The notes under the pieces: model-generated | Told to the model about the DNA's origin: nothing | Seen by the model: only the letters and a program-made list of their open reading frames with translations | The model's database searches: none | Translations under genes and position numbers: made by a program | In this document: positions 40,731-51,778 of the stretch, in pieces | How the letters are laid out: each line of letters opens with the position of its first letter | How positions within the stretch are numbered: position 1 is the stretch's first letter | Assembly: GCA_017428635.1 (NCBI GenBank) | Contig: JAFRQK010000029.1 | Location: forward strand, 16,382-80,381 | Source of the DNA: Clostridia bacterium | GTDB taxonomy: Bacteria; Bacillota; Clostridia; Oscillospirales; CAG-272 | Direction of reading: 5' to 3' | Length of the DNA stretch: 64,000 nucleotides

Positions 40731-42473
40731 TTACTCAACGTCCTGAAGAGCGTCGTAACCCTCTTCTCCGGTACGGACCTTTACTACGTTTTCAACGTCA
40801 TAAACGAAGATCTTGCCGTCTCCGATATGACCGGTGTAAAGCACTTTCTTCGCCGTCTCGATGACCGTCCTGACGGGGACCTTGCTGACGACGACGTCGA
40901 CCTGTATCTTAGGCAGAAGCGTCGCTTCGATCTGGACTCCGCGGTAGTACTCCGGCTTGCCCTTCTGAGCGCCGCATCCGAGCACGTGAGACACCGTCAT
41001 TCCGGTGATGCCGATCTGCATCATCGCGTCTTTCAGCGCCTCAAAACGGGATTCTTTACAGACGATCTCGACCTTCGTGAACTTCGGGCTGCCGTCGTCG
41101 AACGACGGGACACGCTTCACGGGAACGGCATCGGCTTCGGGGATCTCTCCCGTCACGGCGAGGGCTTCCTCATATTCGTAAGGCAGGCCCGCGACCGCGG
41201 GAGCAAAATCGGCGTACGCGCTCGGCAGACCGTGTTCCGTCGAGTCGAGGCCTTTGATCTCCTCTTCCCGAGAGACGCGCAGACCGACCGTCTTTTTGAT
41301 TATGAAGAACGTGAGCGTCATCATCACCGCTGTCCACGCGAGGATCGAGACGATACCGAGCGCCTGGATGCCGAGCAGTCTGAAACTGCCGGTGTAGAAC
41401 AGGCCGTCAAGATGCGCGGGAGCCGAGGGGTTTGCGAGCAGACCGACCGCGATCGTTCCCCAGACGCCGTTGGTGAAGTGGACGGCGACCGCGCCGACCG
41501 GGTCGTCTACGTGGAACTTGAGGTCGAGGACTTCGACGGCGACCACGACGAGGATACCGGAAACGATACCGACGATCGCGGAGCCGAGAGCGTCGAGCGC
41601 GTCACAGCCCGCAGTAATGCCGACGAGCCCCGCGAGCGAGGCGTTCAGGCACATCGAGACGTCCGGTTTGCCGTTCTTGATCCACGTGAAGAGCAGCGTC
41701 GTGCAGGTCGCGACAGCGGGAGCGATCGTCGTCGTCACGAAGATCGACGCGAGCGATTCGCTGTCCCATGCGGCGGCTCCGTTGAAACCGTACCATCCGA
41801 ACCAGAGTATGAAGCAGCCGAGAGCGCCGAGCGTGATCGCGTGACCGGGGATAGCGTTGACTTTTTTGACCTTGCCACCTTTCTCCTTGACGTATTTGCC
41901 AAGGCGCGGCCCGACCATGATCGCGCCGATCAGGGCGGTGATGCCGCCGACCGAGTGGATCGCCGCGGAACCGGCGAAATCGTGGAATCCGAGTCCCGCG
42001 AGCCACCCCTGCGAGTTCCAGACCCAGCCCGCCTCGATCGGGTAGACGAAGAGGGAGATGACGCCGGAATAGATGCAGTAGGAGAGGAATTTCGTTCTCT
42101 CCGCCATCGAACCGGAGACGATCGTCGCCGCGGTGGCGCAGAAGACGAGGTTGAAGACGAACGACGGGGCGTTGCCTCCTTTGAGGAACGCGCCGAAGTC
42201 GGTCAGGATGCTGAGGTTAGGCACGCCGATGAATCCGAAGACGTAGTCCTCCGCCATCATCAGCGAAAAGCCGAGAAGGACGAATACGACGGTCCCGATG
42301 CAGAAGTCCATCAGGTTCTTCATTATGATGTTGCCGGCGTTTTTCGCTCTCGTAAAGCCGGTCTCGACCATGGCGAATCCCGCCTGCATCAGGAACACGA
42401 GCGCGGCTCCGATCAGGAACCAGATACCGAACGCTTCTTCGGTTACGATTTGTTTTACTTCTTCTATCAACAT
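40731..42473 (-). CDS. amt: Ammonium transporter fused to a PII signalling domain
   Basis: 580 residues. Residues 1 to about 405 are an Amt/Rh channel with 11 spans: GFAMVETGFTRAKNAGNI, the FIA-like GSAAIHSVGG, GCFILWFGWYGFN and DDPVGAVAVH with the twin-His pore residues. After a linker (about 410-460) comes a complete PII (GlnB/GlnK) domain (about 463-575): KVEIVCKESRFEALKDAM, T-loop GCGAQKGKPEYYRGV, LPKIQVDVVV, B-loop-like GHIGDGKIFVYDV. Normally a separate GlnK plugs the channel when nitrogen is sufficient; here it is tethered. RBS GAGG before ATG 42473. Second gene of the glnN operon. Confidence 0.93.
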   Translation of the reverse strand: MLIEEVKQIVTEEAFGIWFLIGAALVFLMQAGFAMVETGFTRAKNAGNIIMKNLMDFCIGTVVFVLLGFSLMMAEDYVFGFIGVPNLSILTDFGAFLKGGNAPSFVFNLVFCATAATIVSGSMAERTKFLSYCIYSGVISLFVYPIEAGWVWNSQGWLAGLGFHDFAGSAAIHSVGGITALIGAIMVGPRLGKYVKEKGGKVKKVNAIPGHAITLGALGCFILWFGWYGFNGAAAWDSESLASIFVTTTIAPAVATCTTLLFTWIKNGKPDVSMCLNASLAGLVGITAGCDALDALGSAIVGIVSGILVVVAVEVLDLKFHVDDPVGAVAVHFTNGVWGTIAVGLLANPSAPAHLDGLFYTGSFRLLGIQALGIVSILAWTAVMMTLTFFIIKKTVGLRVSREEEIKGLDSTEHGLPSAYADFAPAVAGLPYEYEEALAVTGEIPEADAVPVKRVPSFDDGSPKFTKVEIVCKESRFEALKDAMMQIGITGMTVSHVLGCGAQKGKPEYYRGVQIEATLLPKIQVDVVVSKVPVRTVIETAKKVLYTGHIGDGKIFVYDVENVVKVRTGEEGYDALQDVE

Positions 42474-42485
42474 GGTTTTACCTCA

Positions 42486-44582
42486 TTACTTAACGCTGAA
42501 CAGAATATCTCCGTAAGTCGGGAACGGCCAGTAGGATCTCGCGGTGAGCGTCTCCGCCTCGTCGCATGCGACGCGCAGTTCGCACATCTTCGTGAGGACC
42601 GTGTCGCGGATCTGAGCGCTCTCGGCGATCACGCCGTCCGCTCCGTGCAGATCGATGACCGCCGCTTCAAGCGCGTCGACTCTCTCGTATATCGTCTCGG
42701 CGAGTGACGCGAGGCGCGAGGACAGTTTCTTCGCGACGCCGCAGGTAGCGGATCCGTCGACTGCTCCGATCGCCGAAACGTCGCGCGCGACGTCGGCGGC
42801 GCAGCGGAAGACCGCCGGAGCGATCATCGTCTTCGCCATGTCGACCATCGTGTTCGCCTCGATGACGACCGTCTTGCAGTAGTTCTCAAGCATGATCTCG
42901 CAGCGGGAGTTCAGCTCCTCTACCGAGAACACGCCGTGGCTCGTGAGCATATCGACGTTCTTCTTGTCAAGCAGATGCGGCATGCAGTCCGGGGTCGTCC
43001 TGTAATTCGTAAGACCCCTCTCTTCCGTCGCTTCTTTGATCCAGGCGTCGTCGTAGCCGTTTCCGTTGAAGATGATCCTCTTGTGATCCTTGATCGTCTG
43101 CTTTATCATCTCGTGCAGTTCGCCCTCGAAGTCCTTTGCGCCCTCGAGACGGTCCGCGTAGATCTTCAGAGATTCGGCGACCGCCGAGTTGAGCATGATG
43201 TTCGCGCAGGCGATGCTGTTCGAGGAGCCGAGCATACGGAACTCGAATTTGTTTCCGGTGAACGCGAACGGCGAGGTCCTGTTGCGGTCCGTCGTGTCGC
43301 GGTTGAATTTCGGGAGGACGTCGACGCCGAGTTTCATCTGCGTCTTTTCCGCGCCGAGGTACGGCTTGTCTGTCTCGATCGCCTCGAGAACGGCGTTCAG
43401 CTCGTCGCCCAAGAACATCGAAACGACTGCGGGCGGCGCCTCGTTCGCGCCGAGTCGATGGTCGTTGCCCGCGGTGGCTACCGAGATGCGGAGAAGATCC
43501 TGATAATCGTCGACCGCTTTGATCACCGCGCAGAGGAACAGCAAGAACTGCGCGTTCTCATACGGCGTGTCGCCGGGAGAGAGCAGGTTCTGTCCCGAGT
43601 CGGTCGCTATCGACCAGTTGTTGTGCTTGCCCGAGCCGTTGACTCCGGCGAACGGTTTTTCGTGAAGCAGGCAGACGAGACCGTGTTTCGCGGCGACCTT
43701 CTGCATGATCTCCATCGTCAACTGGTTGTGGTCGGTCGCAACGTTCGTCGTCGAGTAGATCGGCGCGAGTTCGTGCTGCGCCGGCGCGACTTCGTTGTGC
43801 TCCGTCTTAGCCATGATGCCGAGCTTCCAGAGTTCCTCGTTCAGCTCTTCCATGTAGGCGGCGACTCTCGGCTTGATGACTCCGAAATAGTGGTCGTCCA
43901 TCTCCTGACCCTTCGACGGCTTCGCGCCGAAGAGCGTTCGTCCGGTGCTCCTCAGATCCGGACGGGCGTCGTACATCTCTTTGGTGATAAGGAAGTATTC
44001 CTGCTCGGGCCCGACCGAGGAGCGCACGCACTTCGCCGTGTCGTTGCCGAACAGACGGAGGATGCGGAGCGCCTGACGGTTCAGCGCCTCCATCGAGCGG
44101 AGCAGCGGCGTCTTTTTGTCGAGCGCGTGACCGCCGTAGGAGCAGAACGCCGTCGGAATGCAGAGCGTCTTTCCTTTAATAAACGCGTACGAGGTGGGGT
44201 CCCAAGCGGTGTACCCTCTCGCCTCGAAGGTGGCGCGCAGGCCGCCCGACGGGAACGAGGAGGCGTCCGGTTCGCCTTTTATCAGTTCTTTGCCGGAGAA
44301 CTCCATGATCACTCCTCCGTCCGGGGACGGGGAGATGAAACTGTCGTGCTTCTCGGCGGTGATACCGGTAAGCGGCTGGAACCAGTGAGTAAAGTGGGTC
44401 GCCCCCTTGCTGAGGGCCCACTCCTTCATCGCCTCGGCGACCGCGTTGGCGACGTTCGCGTCGAGCGAGGCGCCCTCGTCGATCGTCTTTTTGAGAGACG
44501 CGTAGACCTTCGCCGAGAGGCGTGACCTCATCTCTCTGTCGTCGAATACCTGACTTCCGAAATACTCCGCAACCGTTTTCAT
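42486..44582 (-). CDS. glnN: Glutamine synthetase type III
   Basis: 698 residues, about 1.5 times the type I enzyme, as typical for GSIII. Makes Gln from Glu, ammonia and ATP. Segments: [19 protein letters not shown] (about 64), [65 protein letters not shown] and [16 protein letters not shown]. Start ATG 44582 with AAAAAGGAG. First gene of a nitrogen operon; its 140-base leader has two hexaloop hairpins that overlap terminator-like stems (see the leader entry), indicating antitermination by the ANTAR regulator encoded at 51.2 kb. Confidence 0.96.
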
Positions 44583-44608
44583 AACTTTTCTCCTTTTTAA
44601 AGTGACAG

Positions 44609-44717
44609 GGCGTCTTCCGCGATAAACACGAAAGACGCCATTGCCTTTTCAATATTATTTAGTTCGTGAAAAGAGAGAAGCGCCTTCGAACCTGCAGTTC
44701 AAAGACGCCTTTGCCTC
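44609..44717 (-). promoter_or_regulatory. glnN leader with two ANTAR-type hexaloop hairpins and competing terminators
   Basis: Read on the minus strand from the promoter. P1 (44702-44717) is stem GAGGC/GTCTT around loop AAAGGC. P2 (44631-44648) is stem AAAGGC/GTCTTT around loop AATGGC. Both loops are six bases with A at position 1 and G at position 4, the hallmark of ANTAR-protein targets. The 3' arm and loop end of P1 are also the 5' arm of a 12-pair hairpin (44680-44708) followed by TTCTCTCTTTT, a good terminator. Those of P2 are also the 5' arm of GGCGTCTT...AAGACGCC (44609-44639), whose T-run is weak. Stabilising P1/P2 should prevent termination. Confidence 0.78.
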
Positions 44718-44729
44718 ATCACGCCCCGT

Positions 44730-44758
44730 ATTATACACCCCGTCATTTGACTTGTCAA
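44730..44758 (-). promoter_or_regulatory. Consensus promoter of the glnN operon
   Basis: Minus strand TTGACA (44753-44758), 17 bp, TATAAT (44730-44735). Full consensus suits constitutive initiation with control at the leader. Confidence 0.9.
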
Positions 44759-44769
44759 CCCCTTTTTTT

Positions 44770-44799
44770 CGATTTTTTCGAGTTTTTTTCAAAAAATCG
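44770..44799. other. A/T-rich dyad between the divergent nitrogen promoters
   Basis: CGATTTTTT (44770-44778) pairs with AAAAAATCG (44791-44799) around cgagtttttttc. It sits centrally between the two -35 boxes. It could be a regulator site, a pair of UP-like A/T tracts, or only bent DNA. Confidence 0.5.
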
Positions 44800-44808
44800 C
44801 AAATCCTC

Positions 44809-44837
44809 TTGACAACGCGAAAAGAGGCGAGTATAAT
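44809..44837 (+). promoter_or_regulatory. Consensus promoter of the glutamate synthase operon
   Basis: TTGACA (44809-44814), 17 bp, TATAAT (44832-44837), divergent from the equally perfect glnN promoter. Confidence 0.9.
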
Positions 44838-44846
44838 GTGAAAACG

Positions 44847-44898
44847 ATGAGCAAAGGCGTTCATTTTCGAGGGTAGTCCCCGAAAACGGGCGCTTTTT
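44847..44898 (+). promoter_or_regulatory. Glutamate synthase leader: ANTAR-type hexaloop hairpin overlapping a terminator
   Basis: Stem ATGAGC (44847-44852) / GTTCAT (44859-44864) around loop AAAGGC, identical to the P1 loop of glnN. The loop end and 3' arm overlap the 5' side of a larger hairpin: GCG (44857-44859) with CGC (44891-44893), TTTTCG (44864-44869) with CGAAAA (44881-44886), and GGG with CCC inside, followed by TTTTTCTTTTT. The two folds exclude each other. A second six-base AnnGnn loop is not obvious in this leader. Confidence 0.72.
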
Positions 44899-44935
44899 CT
44901 TTTTCTCGAAGGATTTCGGAAGGAAGTGACGTATT

Positions 44936-46033
44936 ATGAAATACCGTGAGGGCGAAGTAAGGATCCCGTCGGGATGCGCGATCGCCGCGGTCATATCAAA
45001 GGAAGGAAAACGGATGACGGCAGAGGGGATCGTCAACTCGATGAAGCCGATGCACGACCGTTCCAACGGTCTGGGCGGAGGATTCGCCGGTTACGGGATC
45101 TACCCGGAGTACCGCGATCTTTACGCCTTTCATCTGTTTTTTGACTGCCGCGCGACCAGAAAAGAGGTCGAGGCGTTCCTGAAAGAGGGATTCGAGGTAG
45201 TGAAGGGCGAGATCATCCCGACGAGGAAGATCCCCGAGATCACCGACGAACCCATTATATGGAGATATTTCGTAACGCCGCTCCGTTCCGTGCTCGCCGA
45301 CCTGCAGCTCGACGAAAAGGAATTCGTGGCGCGGACCGTGATGAAGATCAACACGGAAGTCAAGGGCGCGTACGTGTTCTCGAGCGGCAAGAACATGGGA
45401 ACGTTCAAGGCAGTCGGCTTCCCCGAAGACGTCGGCGTCTTCTACCGCCTCGACGAGTACGAGGGGTACTCGTGGACGGCGCACGGCAGATATCCGACGA
45501 ACACGCCGGGCTGGTGGGGCGGCGCTCATCCGTTCACCCTGCTCGACTATTCCGTCGTTCACAACGGCGAGATCTCGTCGTACGACGCGAACCGCCGTTT
45601 CATCGAGATGTTCGGCTACAAATGCACGCTCAAAACGGATACCGAGGTCATCACTTACATACTCGATTATCTGATCCGCGTTCAGGGATTGACGCTGACC
45701 GAAGCGGCGAACGTCATCGCGGCTCCGTTCTGGAGCACGATCGGCTCTAAGACGGACGAATACGAAAAGGACAAGCTCACGTACCTGCGCACCGTCTTCC
45801 CGTCTCTGCTCGTCACCGGGCCGTTCTCGATCGTCCTCGGCTTCGACGGAGGACTGATGGCGCTGAACGACAGGCTGAAGCTCCGCTCGATGGTCGTCGG
45901 CGAGAAAGACGACCGCGTGTTCATCGCGAGCGAGGAAGCGGCGATCAGAGTCATGGAACCGGACGCAGAAAAGATATTCGCACCCGCCGGCGGGGAGCCG
46001 GTCATCGTAAAAGTCAAAGAGGGGGCGTACTGA
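44936..46033 (+). CDS. Glutamate synthase, glutaminase (class II amidotransferase) subunit
   Basis: 365 residues, separate Ntn-type glutaminase of the archaeal-type split glutamate synthase. It frees ammonia from Gln. The nucleophile should be Cys 14 (SGCAIAA), so a 13-residue propeptide must be cleaved. Other marks: HGRYPTNTPGWWGGAHPF, SVVHNGEISSYDANRR, KTDTEV and FIASEEAAIRVM. ATG 44936 has GGAAGGAAG upstream. It is followed after one base by the FMN subunit. Expression is probably subject to the hexaloop leader. Confidence 0.88.
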   Translation: MKYREGEVRIPSGCAIAAVISKEGKRMTAEGIVNSMKPMHDRSNGLGGGFAGYGIYPEYRDLYAFHLFFDCRATRKEVEAFLKEGFEVVKGEIIPTRKIPEITDEPIIWRYFVTPLRSVLADLQLDEKEFVARTVMKINTEVKGAYVFSSGKNMGTFKAVGFPEDVGVFYRLDEYEGYSWTAHGRYPTNTPGWWGGAHPFTLLDYSVVHNGEISSYDANRRFIEMFGYKCTLKTDTEVITYILDYLIRVQGLTLTEAANVIAAPFWSTIGSKTDEYEKDKLTYLRTVFPSLLVTGPFSIVLGFDGGLMALNDRLKLRSMVVGEKDDRVFIASEEAAIRVMEPDAEKIFAPAGGEPVIVKVKEGAY

Positions 46034-47543: not shown

Positions 47544-47985
47544 ATGAAACGTGTTTACGTAAATGAAGAATGGTGCCTCGGGTGCCATCTGTGCGAATAC
47601 AACTGCGCGTTCGCGAACTCGAAACTCGAGAGAATGGCGGCGCTCAAAGGCAAAAAGATCTTCCCGCGCATCCACGTCGAGGGCGACGACCGGATCACTT
47701 TCGCCGTGTCGTGCCGCCACTGCACCGACCCGATCTGCGTGAAAAGCTGTATCGCCGGGGCGATCTCGAAGGTGGACGGCGTCGTGAAGATAGATAAACC
47801 GCGACAAGTGCGTCGGGTGTCTGACGTGCGTTCTCGTCTGCCCGTACGGCGCGCTCGCGCCCGGAGAGAACGGAACGATGCAGAAATGCGAGCTCTGCCT
47901 CTCGAACAGGGCGGGCAAACCCGCGTGCGTGACGGGCTGCCCGAACGGCGCGATCGTCTATGAGGAAAGGAGCGAGGAAGAGTGA
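47544..47985 (+). CDS. 4Fe-4S ferredoxin subunit of glutamate synthase, frameshifted
   Basis: The first 86 codons encode a ferredoxin of the DmsB/HycB type (CLGCHLCEYNCAFANS, CRHCTDPICVKSC). The frame then changes near 47799-47803: with one base skipped it continues as DKCVGCLTCVLVCPYGALAP, MQKCELCLSNRAGKPACVTG, CPNGAIVYEE and stops at 47983-47985, giving four clusters and a GTGA overlap with the next gene. In the unshifted frame it ends at 47963 with an Arg-rich meaningless tail. Probably one extra base in AAACCGCG, a sequencing error or a recent mutation. Role: electron transfer to the synthase subunit. Confidence 0.82.
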
Positions 47986-49947: not shown

Positions 49948-51153
49948 ATGAAATATTCGAAAGAAGAGATCATGCAGTACGTCGCCGAGGAGGACGTCAA
50001 GTTCATACGGCTTGCGTTCTGCGACGTATTCGGAAAGCAGAAAAACATATCGATCATGCCGGACGAACTGCCCCGGGCGCTCGAGGACGGGATCGCCTTC
50101 GACGCGTCCGCGGTAGCGGGCTTCGGGGATGAAAAGAGATCGGACCTGTTCCTCCATCCCCAGACCGACACGCTCGCTCCGCTTCCTTGGAGACCGGAGC
50201 ACGGGCGGGTCGTCCGCATGCTCTGCGATATCACTTACCCCGACGGCACGCCGTTCGAGTGCGACACGCGAAATCTACTGAAGAAAGCGGTCGCCGACGC
50301 GGAATCCGCCGGAGTTTCGTTTTCTTTCGGGGCTGAGCAGGAATTCTATCTGTTCGAGCTCGACGAGAATGAGGAAAAGACGGACAAGCCCTACGACACG
50401 GCGGGATATATGGACATCGCGCCGGAGGACAAGGGAGAAAATATCCGCCGCGAGATCTGCCTGACGCTCGAGCAGATGGGGATCTCCCCGGAGTCGTCCC
50501 ACCATGAGGAGGGACCCGGTCAGAACGAGATCGACTTCCGCTACTCCGACGCGCTGACCGCCGCGGACAACGCGCAGACGTTCCAGACGGTCGTGCGGAC
50601 CGTGGCGAAGAGGAACGGCCTTTACGCCGACTTCTCGCCCAAACCTATCGACGGCGCGCCGGGCAACGGATTCCATATCAATATTTCGGTAAAACCCGAG
50701 GCCGACGGCAGGTTCGAAGCGATGATCGCCGGTATCCTCGATCACGTCCGCTCCATGACGGCGTTTCTCGACCCGACGGACGCCTCGTACAGGCGGCTCG
50801 GCGTTATGAAAGCGCCGGGGTACGTTTCGTGGTCGCACGAAAATCGCTCGCAGCTCGTCCGCATCCCCGCCGCGGTCGGCGAGTACAGGCGCGCGGAACT
50901 CCGCTCGCCCGATCCCGGGGCAAACCCGTATCTCGCCTTCGCGCTCATGATCAGGGCGGGACTCGACGGCATTAAGCGGGGCCTCACTCTTCCCGAACCC
51001 GCCGATTTCAATCTGTTCCACGCGGGCGCGGAAGTGCTCGACCGGTACAAGAAGCTGCCGGGCGACCTCGCCGCGGCGAAGCGCGCCGCTACGAAGAGCG
51101 AATTCATAAGGGGCGTCCTGCCCGAGCAGATCGTCAGGATCTTCTGCGAGTAA
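49948..51153 (+). CDS. glnA: Glutamine synthetase, type I-like, short form
   Basis: 401 residues versus about 440-470 for usual GlnA. Beta-grasp domain (1-90: FIRLAFCDVFGKQKNISI, DGIAFDASAVAGF), catalytic segments GAEQEFYLFELD (Glu ligands), HHEEGPGQNEIDFRY, GNGFHINIS (His) and the nucleotide/glutamate Arg in ENRSQLVRIPAA, RRAELRSPDPGANPYLAFA. No adenylylation loop can be recognised. RBS GGAGG. It adds a second, unrelated glutamine synthetase to the island and precedes the ANTAR regulator by 40 bp. Confidence 0.93.
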   Translation: MKYSKEEIMQYVAEEDVKFIRLAFCDVFGKQKNISIMPDELPRALEDGIAFDASAVAGFGDEKRSDLFLHPQTDTLAPLPWRPEHGRVVRMLCDITYPDGTPFECDTRNLLKKAVADAESAGVSFSFGAEQEFYLFELDENEEKTDKPYDTAGYMDIAPEDKGENIRREICLTLEQMGISPESSHHEEGPGQNEIDFRYSDALTAADNAQTFQTVVRTVAKRNGLYADFSPKPIDGAPGNGFHINISVKPEADGRFEAMIAGILDHVRSMTAFLDPTDASYRRLGVMKAPGYVSWSHENRSQLVRIPAAVGEYRRAELRSPDPGANPYLAFALMIRAGLDGIKRGLTLPEPADFNLFHAGAEVLDRYKKLPGDLAAAKRAATKSEFIRGVLPEQIVRIFCE

Positions 51154-51193: not shown

Positions 51194-51778
51194 ATGAGTC
51201 TGATGGAGCGGGTGTACAGCGTCCTGCTCGTTTCATCGTCTGATAAACTGAACGGCGTCCTCTGCGACATGCTCCCCGCCGCGAAGTTCTCGCCGGTCAA
51301 CACGGTCGGCAACGTCAGCGCCGCGAAGCGCGCGCTCGCCGAGCGTGAATACGATCTCGTCCTCATAAACGCGCCTCTCCCGGACGAGGACGGAGTCAGA
51401 TTCTCCGTCGACGCGGGGAGCGCAAAGAACACGGTGGTTCTCATCATGGTCAGGTCGGAACGGTACGACGAGGTCGCCGATATCGTCACCGGCGCGGGCG
51501 TTTTTCTGATCCCGAAGCCGCTGTCGCGGTCGACCGTGACGCTCGCTCTCGGATTTCTCTCGAGCGCGAGAGAGAGGATCAGGGCGACGGAGAAAAAAGT
51601 CCTCTCGTTCGAGGAAAAGATGAACGAGATCCGACTCGTCAACCGCGCGAAATGGCTGCTCATCAGCGAACTCAAGATGACGGAGCCGGACGCGCACCGG
51701 TACGTGGAAAAGCAGGCGATGGACCGCTGCGTGCCGAAACGGCAGGTCGCGGAAGAGATAATAAAAACTTACGGATAA
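51194..51778 (+). CDS. ANTAR-domain RNA-binding regulator with pseudo-receiver
   Basis: 194 residues. Residues about 7-125 form a receiver-like fold whose acidic pair is replaced (LLVSSSDK) and whose phospho-acceptor is Asn 59 (DLVLINAPLPDEDG), while Lys 108 (LIPKPLS) remains. Coiled coil from about 125, then ANTAR domain (about 138-193: RLVNRAKWLLISELKMTEPD, AHRYVEKQAMDRCVPKRQVA). ANTAR proteins bind paired hexaloop hairpins and block terminators; such hairpins lie in front of glnN and the glutamate synthase operon. With Asn at 59 it is unlikely to be switched by phosphorylation. Last gene of the glt-glnA operon; RBS AAAGGAGG. Confidence 0.92.
   Translation: MSLMERVYSVLLVSSSDKLNGVLCDMLPAAKFSPVNTVGNVSAAKRALAEREYDLVLINAPLPDEDGVRFSVDAGSAKNTVVLIMVRSERYDEVADIVTGAGVFLIPKPLSRSTVTLALGFLSSARERIRATEKKVLSFEEKMNEIRLVNRAKWLLISELKMTEPDAHRYVEKQAMDRCVPKRQVAEEIIKTYG

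Follow-up and report, generated by a model that had tools for sequence, protein, structure and literature searches.

Putative single-hexaloop ANTAR attenuators, alone or in tandem, in nitrogen-assimilation leaders of gut Clostridia

The window, by which we mean the whole stretch of 64,000 nucleotides that was analysed, carries ammonia-assimilation genes on both strands. On the reverse strand, glnN is followed by a gene for an Amt-PII fusion, an asparagine-synthase-like gene and a gene that, from its sequence alone, we presume to encode CTP synthase. On the forward strand, a split glutamate synthase is followed by glnA, of type I, and then by a gene for an ANTAR protein. The genes on which the analysis centres are the following:

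42486..44582, reverse strand: glnN, glutamine synthetase type III (GSIII); Pfam GSIII_N, 3.2e-81
44936..46033, forward strand: first gene of the glutamate synthase operon, with a class II glutamine amidotransferase domain; Pfam GATase_2
49948..51153, forward strand: glnA, glutamine synthetase type I (GSI), adjoining the regulator gene on its upstream side; Pfam and gene order in relatives
51194..51778, forward strand: NitR-like ANTAR protein (degenerate receiver domain plus ANTAR domain); Pfam ANTAR, 5.9e-15

The ammonium transporter and the P-II domain lie in a single reading frame (40731-42473, reverse strand) that adjoins glnN, and the fusion protein is a candidate source of the nitrogen signal. 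The small ferredoxin-like subunit (47544-47963, forward strand) is apparently out of frame past about residue 90 when compared with relatives. A second GSIII gene in the same genome (L019, G000:C40), 59% identical, has a leader in which no unit of the kind described below is recognisable.

The glnN leader contains a promoter followed by two units, each consisting of a hexaloop hairpin and a longer, overlapping terminator-like hairpin:

44730..44758, reverse strand: glnN promoter, TTGACA-17-TATAAT; 12/12 matches, same arrangement in relatives
44702..44717, reverse strand: hexaloop hairpin 1, GAGGC-AAAGGC-GTCTT, 12 nt past the -10 box; covariation
44668..44710, reverse strand: terminator 1, hairpin 44710-44678 with the tail CTCTCTTTTC, overlapping hexaloop 1; fold, terminator scan and covariation
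44631..44648, reverse strand: hexaloop hairpin 2, AAAGGC-AATGGC-GTCTTT, 53 nt past hairpin 1
44599..44639, reverse strand: terminator-like hairpin 2, 44639-44609 with the tail CTGTCACTTT, overlapping hexaloop 2; fold, U-tract truncated here

The initial annotation had described a perfect promoter and two ANTAR-type stems with the loops AAAGGC and AATGGC, and these features are borne out: the promoter matches its consensus at every position (44758-44730), the stems lie at 44717-44702 and 44648-44631, and the loops carry A1, G4 and a C:G closing pair. Because the 3' arm and the loop end of each hexaloop form the 5' arm of the terminator, the two folds are mutually exclusive. The motif GGCAAWGGCGTCTTT, allowing up to 2 mismatches, occurs twice in the 64 kb, both times in the glnN leader, with 0.21 occurrences expected, and only 1 of 100 shuffles of the window reached two. 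The leader folds at -59.4 kcal/mol (z -6.3; 0/200 shuffles as low), with z values of -3.1 for region 1 (1/200 as low) and -6.1 for region 2 (0/200). Covariance-model matches at 44667-44721 (unit 1, 54.8 bits) and 44599-44651 (unit 2, 45.9 bits) come from units that belong to the training set of the model. A consensus terminator scan of 44300-45100 called only terminator 1, with shuffles averaging 1.4 calls.

The second unit has a distinct feature in this genome. Its tail, CTGTCACTTTAAAAAGG, has no proper U-tract; at the corresponding place, L003 and L004, which are 98% identical in GlnN, have CTTTTTTGAA and then about 40 further bases. The truncated site, relative to L003 and L004, corresponds to 44599-44608 (reverse strand), and unit 2 may be decaying in this genome. 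Of the two-stage design proposed in the initial annotation, the pairing of one terminator with each hexaloop stands, while the second stage may be weak or leaky here, since its hairpin lacks a full U-tract.

What the unit is can best be judged from the divergent glutamate synthase leader, which contains a single copy, absent from the features initially listed (44846-44905, forward strand):

44809..44837, forward strand: promoter of the glutamate synthase operon, TTGACA-17-TATAAT; 12/12 matches
44846..44865, forward strand: single hexaloop hairpin of the gltB-type leader, GATGAGC-AAAGGC-GTTCATT, 8 nt past the -10 box
44855..44905, forward strand: terminator overlapping the gltB-type hexaloop, with the T-rich tail TTTCTTTTTC; fold and terminator test

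The covariance model matches this unit, also a member of the training set, at 44844-44906 with 49.1 bits, and the fold of the leader reaches a z of only -1.9 (11/200 shuffles as low). In the whole genome, a search found one ANTAR gene, and the unit model has three matches at E up to 0.01, all of them at the glnN/glutamate synthase locus.

Comparison within the genus, in which GlnN was searched in twelve genomes including our own, yielded nine glnN leaders with units (L002-L008, L020 and L030): two units in eight of them and a single unit in L007. All eight readable glutamate synthase leaders of the genus have one unit each, and no unit was found upstream of the second type of GSIII gene (59-61% identical) in genus genomes. 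Both helices were scored over the 22 units of the genus. For the hexaloop stem, 98.5% of cells are paired and 28 carry double changes, with slid registers not exceeding 59.8%; for the terminator stem, the figures are 87.1% and 66, with slid registers not exceeding 55.7%. In part, the hexaloop covariation within the genus stems from one ancient divergence that separates glnN-type units (GGC/GTC) from glt-type ones (GAGC/GTTC).

Outside the genus, we searched the window and 83 family regions with a covariance model (R1) that contains the terminator pairs and no hexaloop pairs, and obtained 104 distinct hits (E up to 0.1, overlapping strands dropped). In these, the outer hexaloop stem is paired in 86% of cases, compared with 64% in shuffles (no more than 69% in any of 1000) and 38-62% in slid registers. 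A1 and G4 are present in 104/104 units and A2 is invariant as well, although the search model favours these letters; the same applies to the closing pair (C:G in 103/104, U:G in 1/104) and to the pair next to it (G:U in 102/104, A:U in 2/104). The initial annotation had named covariation of the hexaloop stems in orthologues beforehand as a test of its proposal. Such covariation is seen in leaders of both genus and family, and both of the competing helices covary across relatives, in agreement with the mutually exclusive folds it had predicted.

Isolated hexaloop 1 is not its own minimum-energy fold (-3.0 versus -4.2 kcal/mol for a tetraloop fold). A tetraloop fold of the unit was considered and rejected: the loop positions G14 and C15 vary (conserved in 99 and 95 of 104 units), the two closing hexaloop pairs can form in 104/104, and the outer covarying pairs fit the hexaloop register only. 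In the lineage of L115, L162 and L174, the glnN unit nearest the promoter carries an A.C mismatch within its hexaloop stem (GCGAC-AAGGNN-GCCGC). An Rfam search of the window gave no family at the gathering score, and a search of the leaders at a loose threshold gave three weak, unrelated matches far under the cut-offs (E 0.33-0.73).

Terminators were called as hairpins of -12 kcal/mol or lower followed by at least 5 U in 8 nt. By this measure, a terminator with a U-tract accompanies all 33 single glutamate synthase units, 14/19 first units and 12/19 second units of two-unit glnN leaders, and 15/23 single glnN units; one shuffle of each sequence downstream of the hexaloop gave 1, 1, 1 and 0 calls, respectively. 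Unit 2 of our own glnN leader fails on its U-tract. Isolated hexaloops are weak, at -3.0 to -5.6 kcal/mol compared with about -19 to -22 kcal/mol for the terminators, so termination should be the default outcome.

The number of units differs between genes. Among family leaders for which 200 nt or more of upstream sequence is available, counted by a pattern that misses divergent units and includes a few chance matches, glutamate synthase leaders have one unit in 33/37, two in 1/37 and none in 3/37, and glnN leaders have one in 22/48, two in 19/48, three in 1/48 and none in 6/48. The third unit of the family three-unit leader (L152) is a chance match at the start codon, at -16. Among the 22 single-unit glnN leaders, 16 have their unit at the promoter; of the other six, L111, L115 and L162 have a divergent first unit ahead of the one counted. 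Leaders scored as having none include L154 and L160 (glnN), in which a unit can be seen by eye, and L108 and L141 (glutamate synthase), which hold a model match. In a set of named genomes, some of which also belong to the family set, glnN leaders (at least 200 nt upstream) have two units in 31/47, one in 15/47 and none in 1/47, and glutamate synthase leaders have one in 40/44, two in 1/44 and none in 3/44.

Other genes of nitrogen metabolism are represented as well. One unit precedes glnA in 8/58 family leaders, CTP synthase in 3/14 and amt in 1/6; the corresponding named-set counts are 5/69, 3/7 and 0/16, with 0/13 for asnB. A like unit lies ahead of CTP synthase in other lineages (L104, L217, L244 and L268). 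These data suggest that CTP synthase, a glutamine-consuming enzyme, belongs to the regulon. One genome of the order, G374, has a run of three units ahead of glnN (L283:940-1270). Its middle unit has the loop AAAGGA, and the 3' arm of the terminator changes along with it (GACTCC).

The position of the unit is conserved. Across 110 family units in 88 leaders, the first hairpin starts no more than 21 nt from a -10 box whose promoter has at least 10/12 matches in 79/88 leaders, and the first unit is promoter-proximal in 85/95 leaders of the named set. The RNA that precedes the hairpin has a median length of 2 nt (range -1 to 15; 80 promoter-proximal units, with the start assumed 7 nt past the -10 box). 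With the hairpin at the extreme 5' end of the transcript, a recruiting P1 hairpin could not be accommodated ahead of it. On the other side, 8/109 family units have another hexaloop in the 25 nt that follow, with 5.1 expected by chance, and none was found within 25 nt upstream of the second glnN units (0/20; 0.2 expected). Between tandem glnN units, the linker measures 44-157 nt across 20 family leaders and 43-107 nt across 31 leaders of the named set. The short-linker hexaloop pair that defines the Ramesh 2012 motif (5-12 nt in eut; 2-25 nt in the actinobacterial search) is thus no commoner than chance in these leaders. A dual-hexaloop screen of 7 ethanolamine loci of the order, intended as a positive control, returned one weak candidate in a single region under one filter and one coding-looking match under another, and so was of little use as a control.

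These counts bear on how the leaders relate to the paired-hexaloop targets with which the initial annotation had compared them. The two glnN hexaloops could be the P1 and P2 of one conventional target, with terminator 1 placed in a long linker, as the two-unit leaders in 19/48 family and 31/47 named cases and the retention of A1 and G4 in both loops would allow. We regard this as unlikely: glutamate synthase leaders have one unit (33/37 in the family, 40/44 in the named set), 22/48 family glnN leaders have one by pattern and one genome has three, the linkers of 43-157 nt contrast with 5-12 nt in E. faecalis eut, and every hexaloop overlaps a terminator of its own. The presence of two units at glnN holds, but they are better described as two self-contained single-hexaloop copies than as a stretched dual motif.

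A different action of the ANTAR protein, in which it would stabilise termination or, at unit 2, block translation in the way put forward for actinobacterial ANTAR RNAs, is suggested by the partly lost U-tract of unit 2, by the end of its hairpin only 13 nt before the glnN Shine-Dalgarno sequence, and by ANTAR RNAs that cover ribosome-binding sites, as described in the relevant passages of PMC8164766. However, the hexaloop reaches into the 5' arm of the terminator, and its binding should make that terminator weaker, not stronger; in addition, 109/110 family units place their hexaloop 56 nt or more ahead of the point where the coding match begins. We therefore consider this alternative improbable, slightly more so than the divided target discussed above.

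The ANTAR protein of the window has 194 residues, comprising a degenerate receiver domain and an ANTAR domain, and its closest solved relatives by profile are Rv1626 (1s8n), EutV (6wsh/6ww6) and AmiR (1qo0). The phospho-acceptor Asp is replaced by Asn59, and among 136 distinct homologues this position is Asn in 132, Asp in 3 and His in 1; the protein is thus unlikely to be switched by phosphorylation. The fetched loci of the three homologues that keep Asp (L153, L163 and L169) have no recognisable units. According to a manual reading of the profile alignment, Lys149, Glu160 and Met172 of EutV correspond to K153, E164 and M176, which are invariant in 136/136. Of the EutV residues that touch G4, Tyr164, which stacks on it, corresponds to His168 in 136/136, as in AmiR, and Arg142, which contacts it, is not kept (Ile in 129/136). 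Most RNA-contact residues are retained, and the protein can plausibly bind the hexaloops.

Units occur largely in genomes that have an ANTAR gene. Among 146 family genomes, an ANTAR gene is found in 65 and a unit in 44, and 43 of the 44 unit-bearing genomes have ANTAR; in the order (245 genomes), the corresponding counts are 144, 70 and 68 of 70. Fisher p values of 2e-19 (family) and 3e-17 (order) are not strict probabilities, as the genomes are related and the samples share members, and among the unit calls, made at E 0.01, 1-3 may be chance matches. Renewed searches of the unit-bearing genomes G141, G232 and G358 gave no ANTAR over the cut-off, with two weak matches (E 0.07 and 0.43), although ANTAR is present in further genomes sampled from the same genera. 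Conversely, ANTAR occurs in 22 of the 102 family genomes without a unit match. All 22 were fetched, and in about 9 a divergent unit can be made out by pattern or eye (L154, L156, L157, L159, L160, L162, L167, L171 and L172); in the remainder no unit was recognisable, contig ends truncating some of the loci. In 15/43 genomes, the ANTAR gene and at least one unit are on different contigs, and contig breaks may explain many of these cases; in G020, G112 and G132, the unit is well inside a long contig separate from the ANTAR gene.

The leaders might instead be attenuators for a different factor, an RNA-binding protein or a ligand, with the link to ANTAR reflecting shared gene order. Binding of the ANTAR protein is a predicted step, three unit-bearing genomes have no clear ANTAR gene, and co-inheritance is to be expected where regulator and targets are neighbours, as they often are. 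Opposed to this are the match of A1, G4 and the C:G closing pair to EutV and NasR targets, the units in G020, G112 and G132 that are physically apart from the ANTAR gene, and the lack of any Rfam family reaching its cut-off. We give this explanation still less credence than either of the preceding alternatives. Ordinary terminators combined with chance hexaloops are hardly credible: although the consensus terminator scan by itself does no better than chance and the glutamate synthase leader folds with a z of only -1.9, both helices covary, their position is conserved, and the units co-occur with ANTAR.

Beyond the order, a phylum-wide search with the model matched 35/299 genomes, many near E 0.01, where about 3 chance matches are expected; for that reason these were left out of the counts. 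A scan of named genomes with the ANTAR alignment found at least 571 relatives. The best 80 of these at least 571 belong to ruminant and other gut Clostridia, including metagenome genomes labelled Ruminococcus and Lachnospiraceae and named strains such as Mediterraneibacter glycyrrhizinilyticus, Merdimmobilis hominis, Eubacterium sp. 14-2 and Clostridium sp. AT4. Among the matches listed, the closest ANTAR protein, 98% identical, comes from a sheep omasum Clostridia genome (RGIG6051).

Taken together, we consider it probable that each unit is a self-contained single-hexaloop attenuator, antiterminated by an ANTAR protein and present in tandem at glnN. In this model, the polymerase would start at the strong promoter and the first 20-30 nt or so of RNA would fold into the hexaloop hairpin, with its A1 and G4, as the first structure to leave the polymerase. 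The ANTAR protein would grip the loop and hold the hairpin, barring its 3' arm from the terminator so that transcription continues; in the absence of the protein, the more stable terminator hairpin would form and transcription would stop. One hexaloop would suffice. At glnN, where two units lie in series, the polymerase would have to be licensed twice, which should make expression of glnN-amt depend more steeply on active protein. Since the ANTAR gene ends the glutamate synthase-glnA cluster, which carries one unit, read-through extending to that gene would impose positive feedback on the regulator. Activity of the protein is probably set by a partner or by nitrogen status rather than by phosphorylation.

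A broader proposition, towards which we lean with less assurance, is that gut Clostridia possess a nitrogen regulon based on single-hexaloop antitermination, with a phosphorylation-independent ANTAR protein that licenses the polymerase at a 5'-terminal hexaloop, no need for a P1 hairpin, and a steepness of response set for each operon by the number of units (one, two or three).

Several known systems share parts of this arrangement. AmiR is controlled by a partner instead of phosphorylation. Like the protein described here, it combines a receiver-like domain with ANTAR and has His at the position of EutV Tyr164; unlike the AmiR system, no AmiC-like partner was identified here, and the targets are nitrogen-assimilation leaders. 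Two independent sensor-terminator units in series should sharpen a response, and the tandem glnN leader resembles tandem riboswitches with separate expression platforms in having two such units, although the sensor would bind a protein rather than a metabolite and the unit is far smaller. NitR is reportedly an antiterminator named for the ammonia assimilation of C. acetobutylicum. NitR and Clo1313_2030 of C. thermocellum are likewise encoded with GS-GOGAT genes and proposed to act as antiterminators, but in the relevant passages of PMC4676874 no hexaloop target is described for them; an antisense RNA is mentioned there.

The closest parallels are the dual-hexaloop targets of E. faecalis eut (EutV), Klebsiella nasF (NasR) and Pseudomonas amiE (AmiR), as presented in the pertinent sections of PMC3369931, PMC7496416 and PMC8934654. 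Common to both are A1 and G4, the C:G closing pair, a stem of at least 3 bp, the overlap with an exclusive intrinsic terminator, and an association with nitrogen-related genes, including those of glutamate and glutamine synthesis. In contrast to those targets, the present leaders have one hexaloop per terminator, no P1 and no short linker, and the hairpin lies at the extreme 5' end in units repeated one to three times. According to the binding section of PMC7496416, the affinity of NasR for one hairpin is about 12-fold lower than for two, and the passages on linkers in PMC3369931 and PMC8934654 give 5-12 nt for E. faecalis eut and report that a linker of 14 nt or one extended by 20 nt sharply cut or abolished EutV function. 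Given the weakness of NasR on single hairpins, which is the chief objection to the present reading, and the sensitivity of EutV to the linker, poor activity on the leaders described here would be expected of the ANTAR proteins known so far.

The idea of a lone ANTAR hexaloop is not in itself new. In the portions concerned, PMC8934654, the 2022 EutV-RNA structure, redefines the minimal ANTAR site as one hexaloop and states that the role of single-hexaloop motifs needs further analysis. The same portions mention, as suggested cases of an ANTAR-type hexaloop without a partner, the extra hexaloop of E. faecalis EutX RNA and mycobacterial RNAs that sometimes depart from the dual motif; the former belongs to a sequestering RNA and the latter lie at ribosome-binding sites or in 5' UTRs, and no group of one-hexaloop terminators governing a regulon is described there. 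In the open-licence papers searched, no earlier report of such leaders was recognised, and an earlier mention may exist. Based on comparative sequence evidence, the putative single-hexaloop ANTAR attenuator, alone or in tandem, is a variant of ANTAR attenuation; it is assigned as such because it would work like a known ANTAR attenuator without the defining hexaloop pair.

If the broader proposition is correct, the dual-hexaloop rule would apply to EutV and NasR without being general. Searches that require short-linker hexaloop pairs would probably miss these leaders, which bear directly on the question of whether single-hexaloop targets work. They provide a large natural set of candidates, from named strains as well as metagenome genomes, located on central genes of ammonia assimilation. 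Furthermore, the occurrence of one, two or three like switches in cis would constitute a natural series for studying how tandem attenuation shapes the response of these genes.
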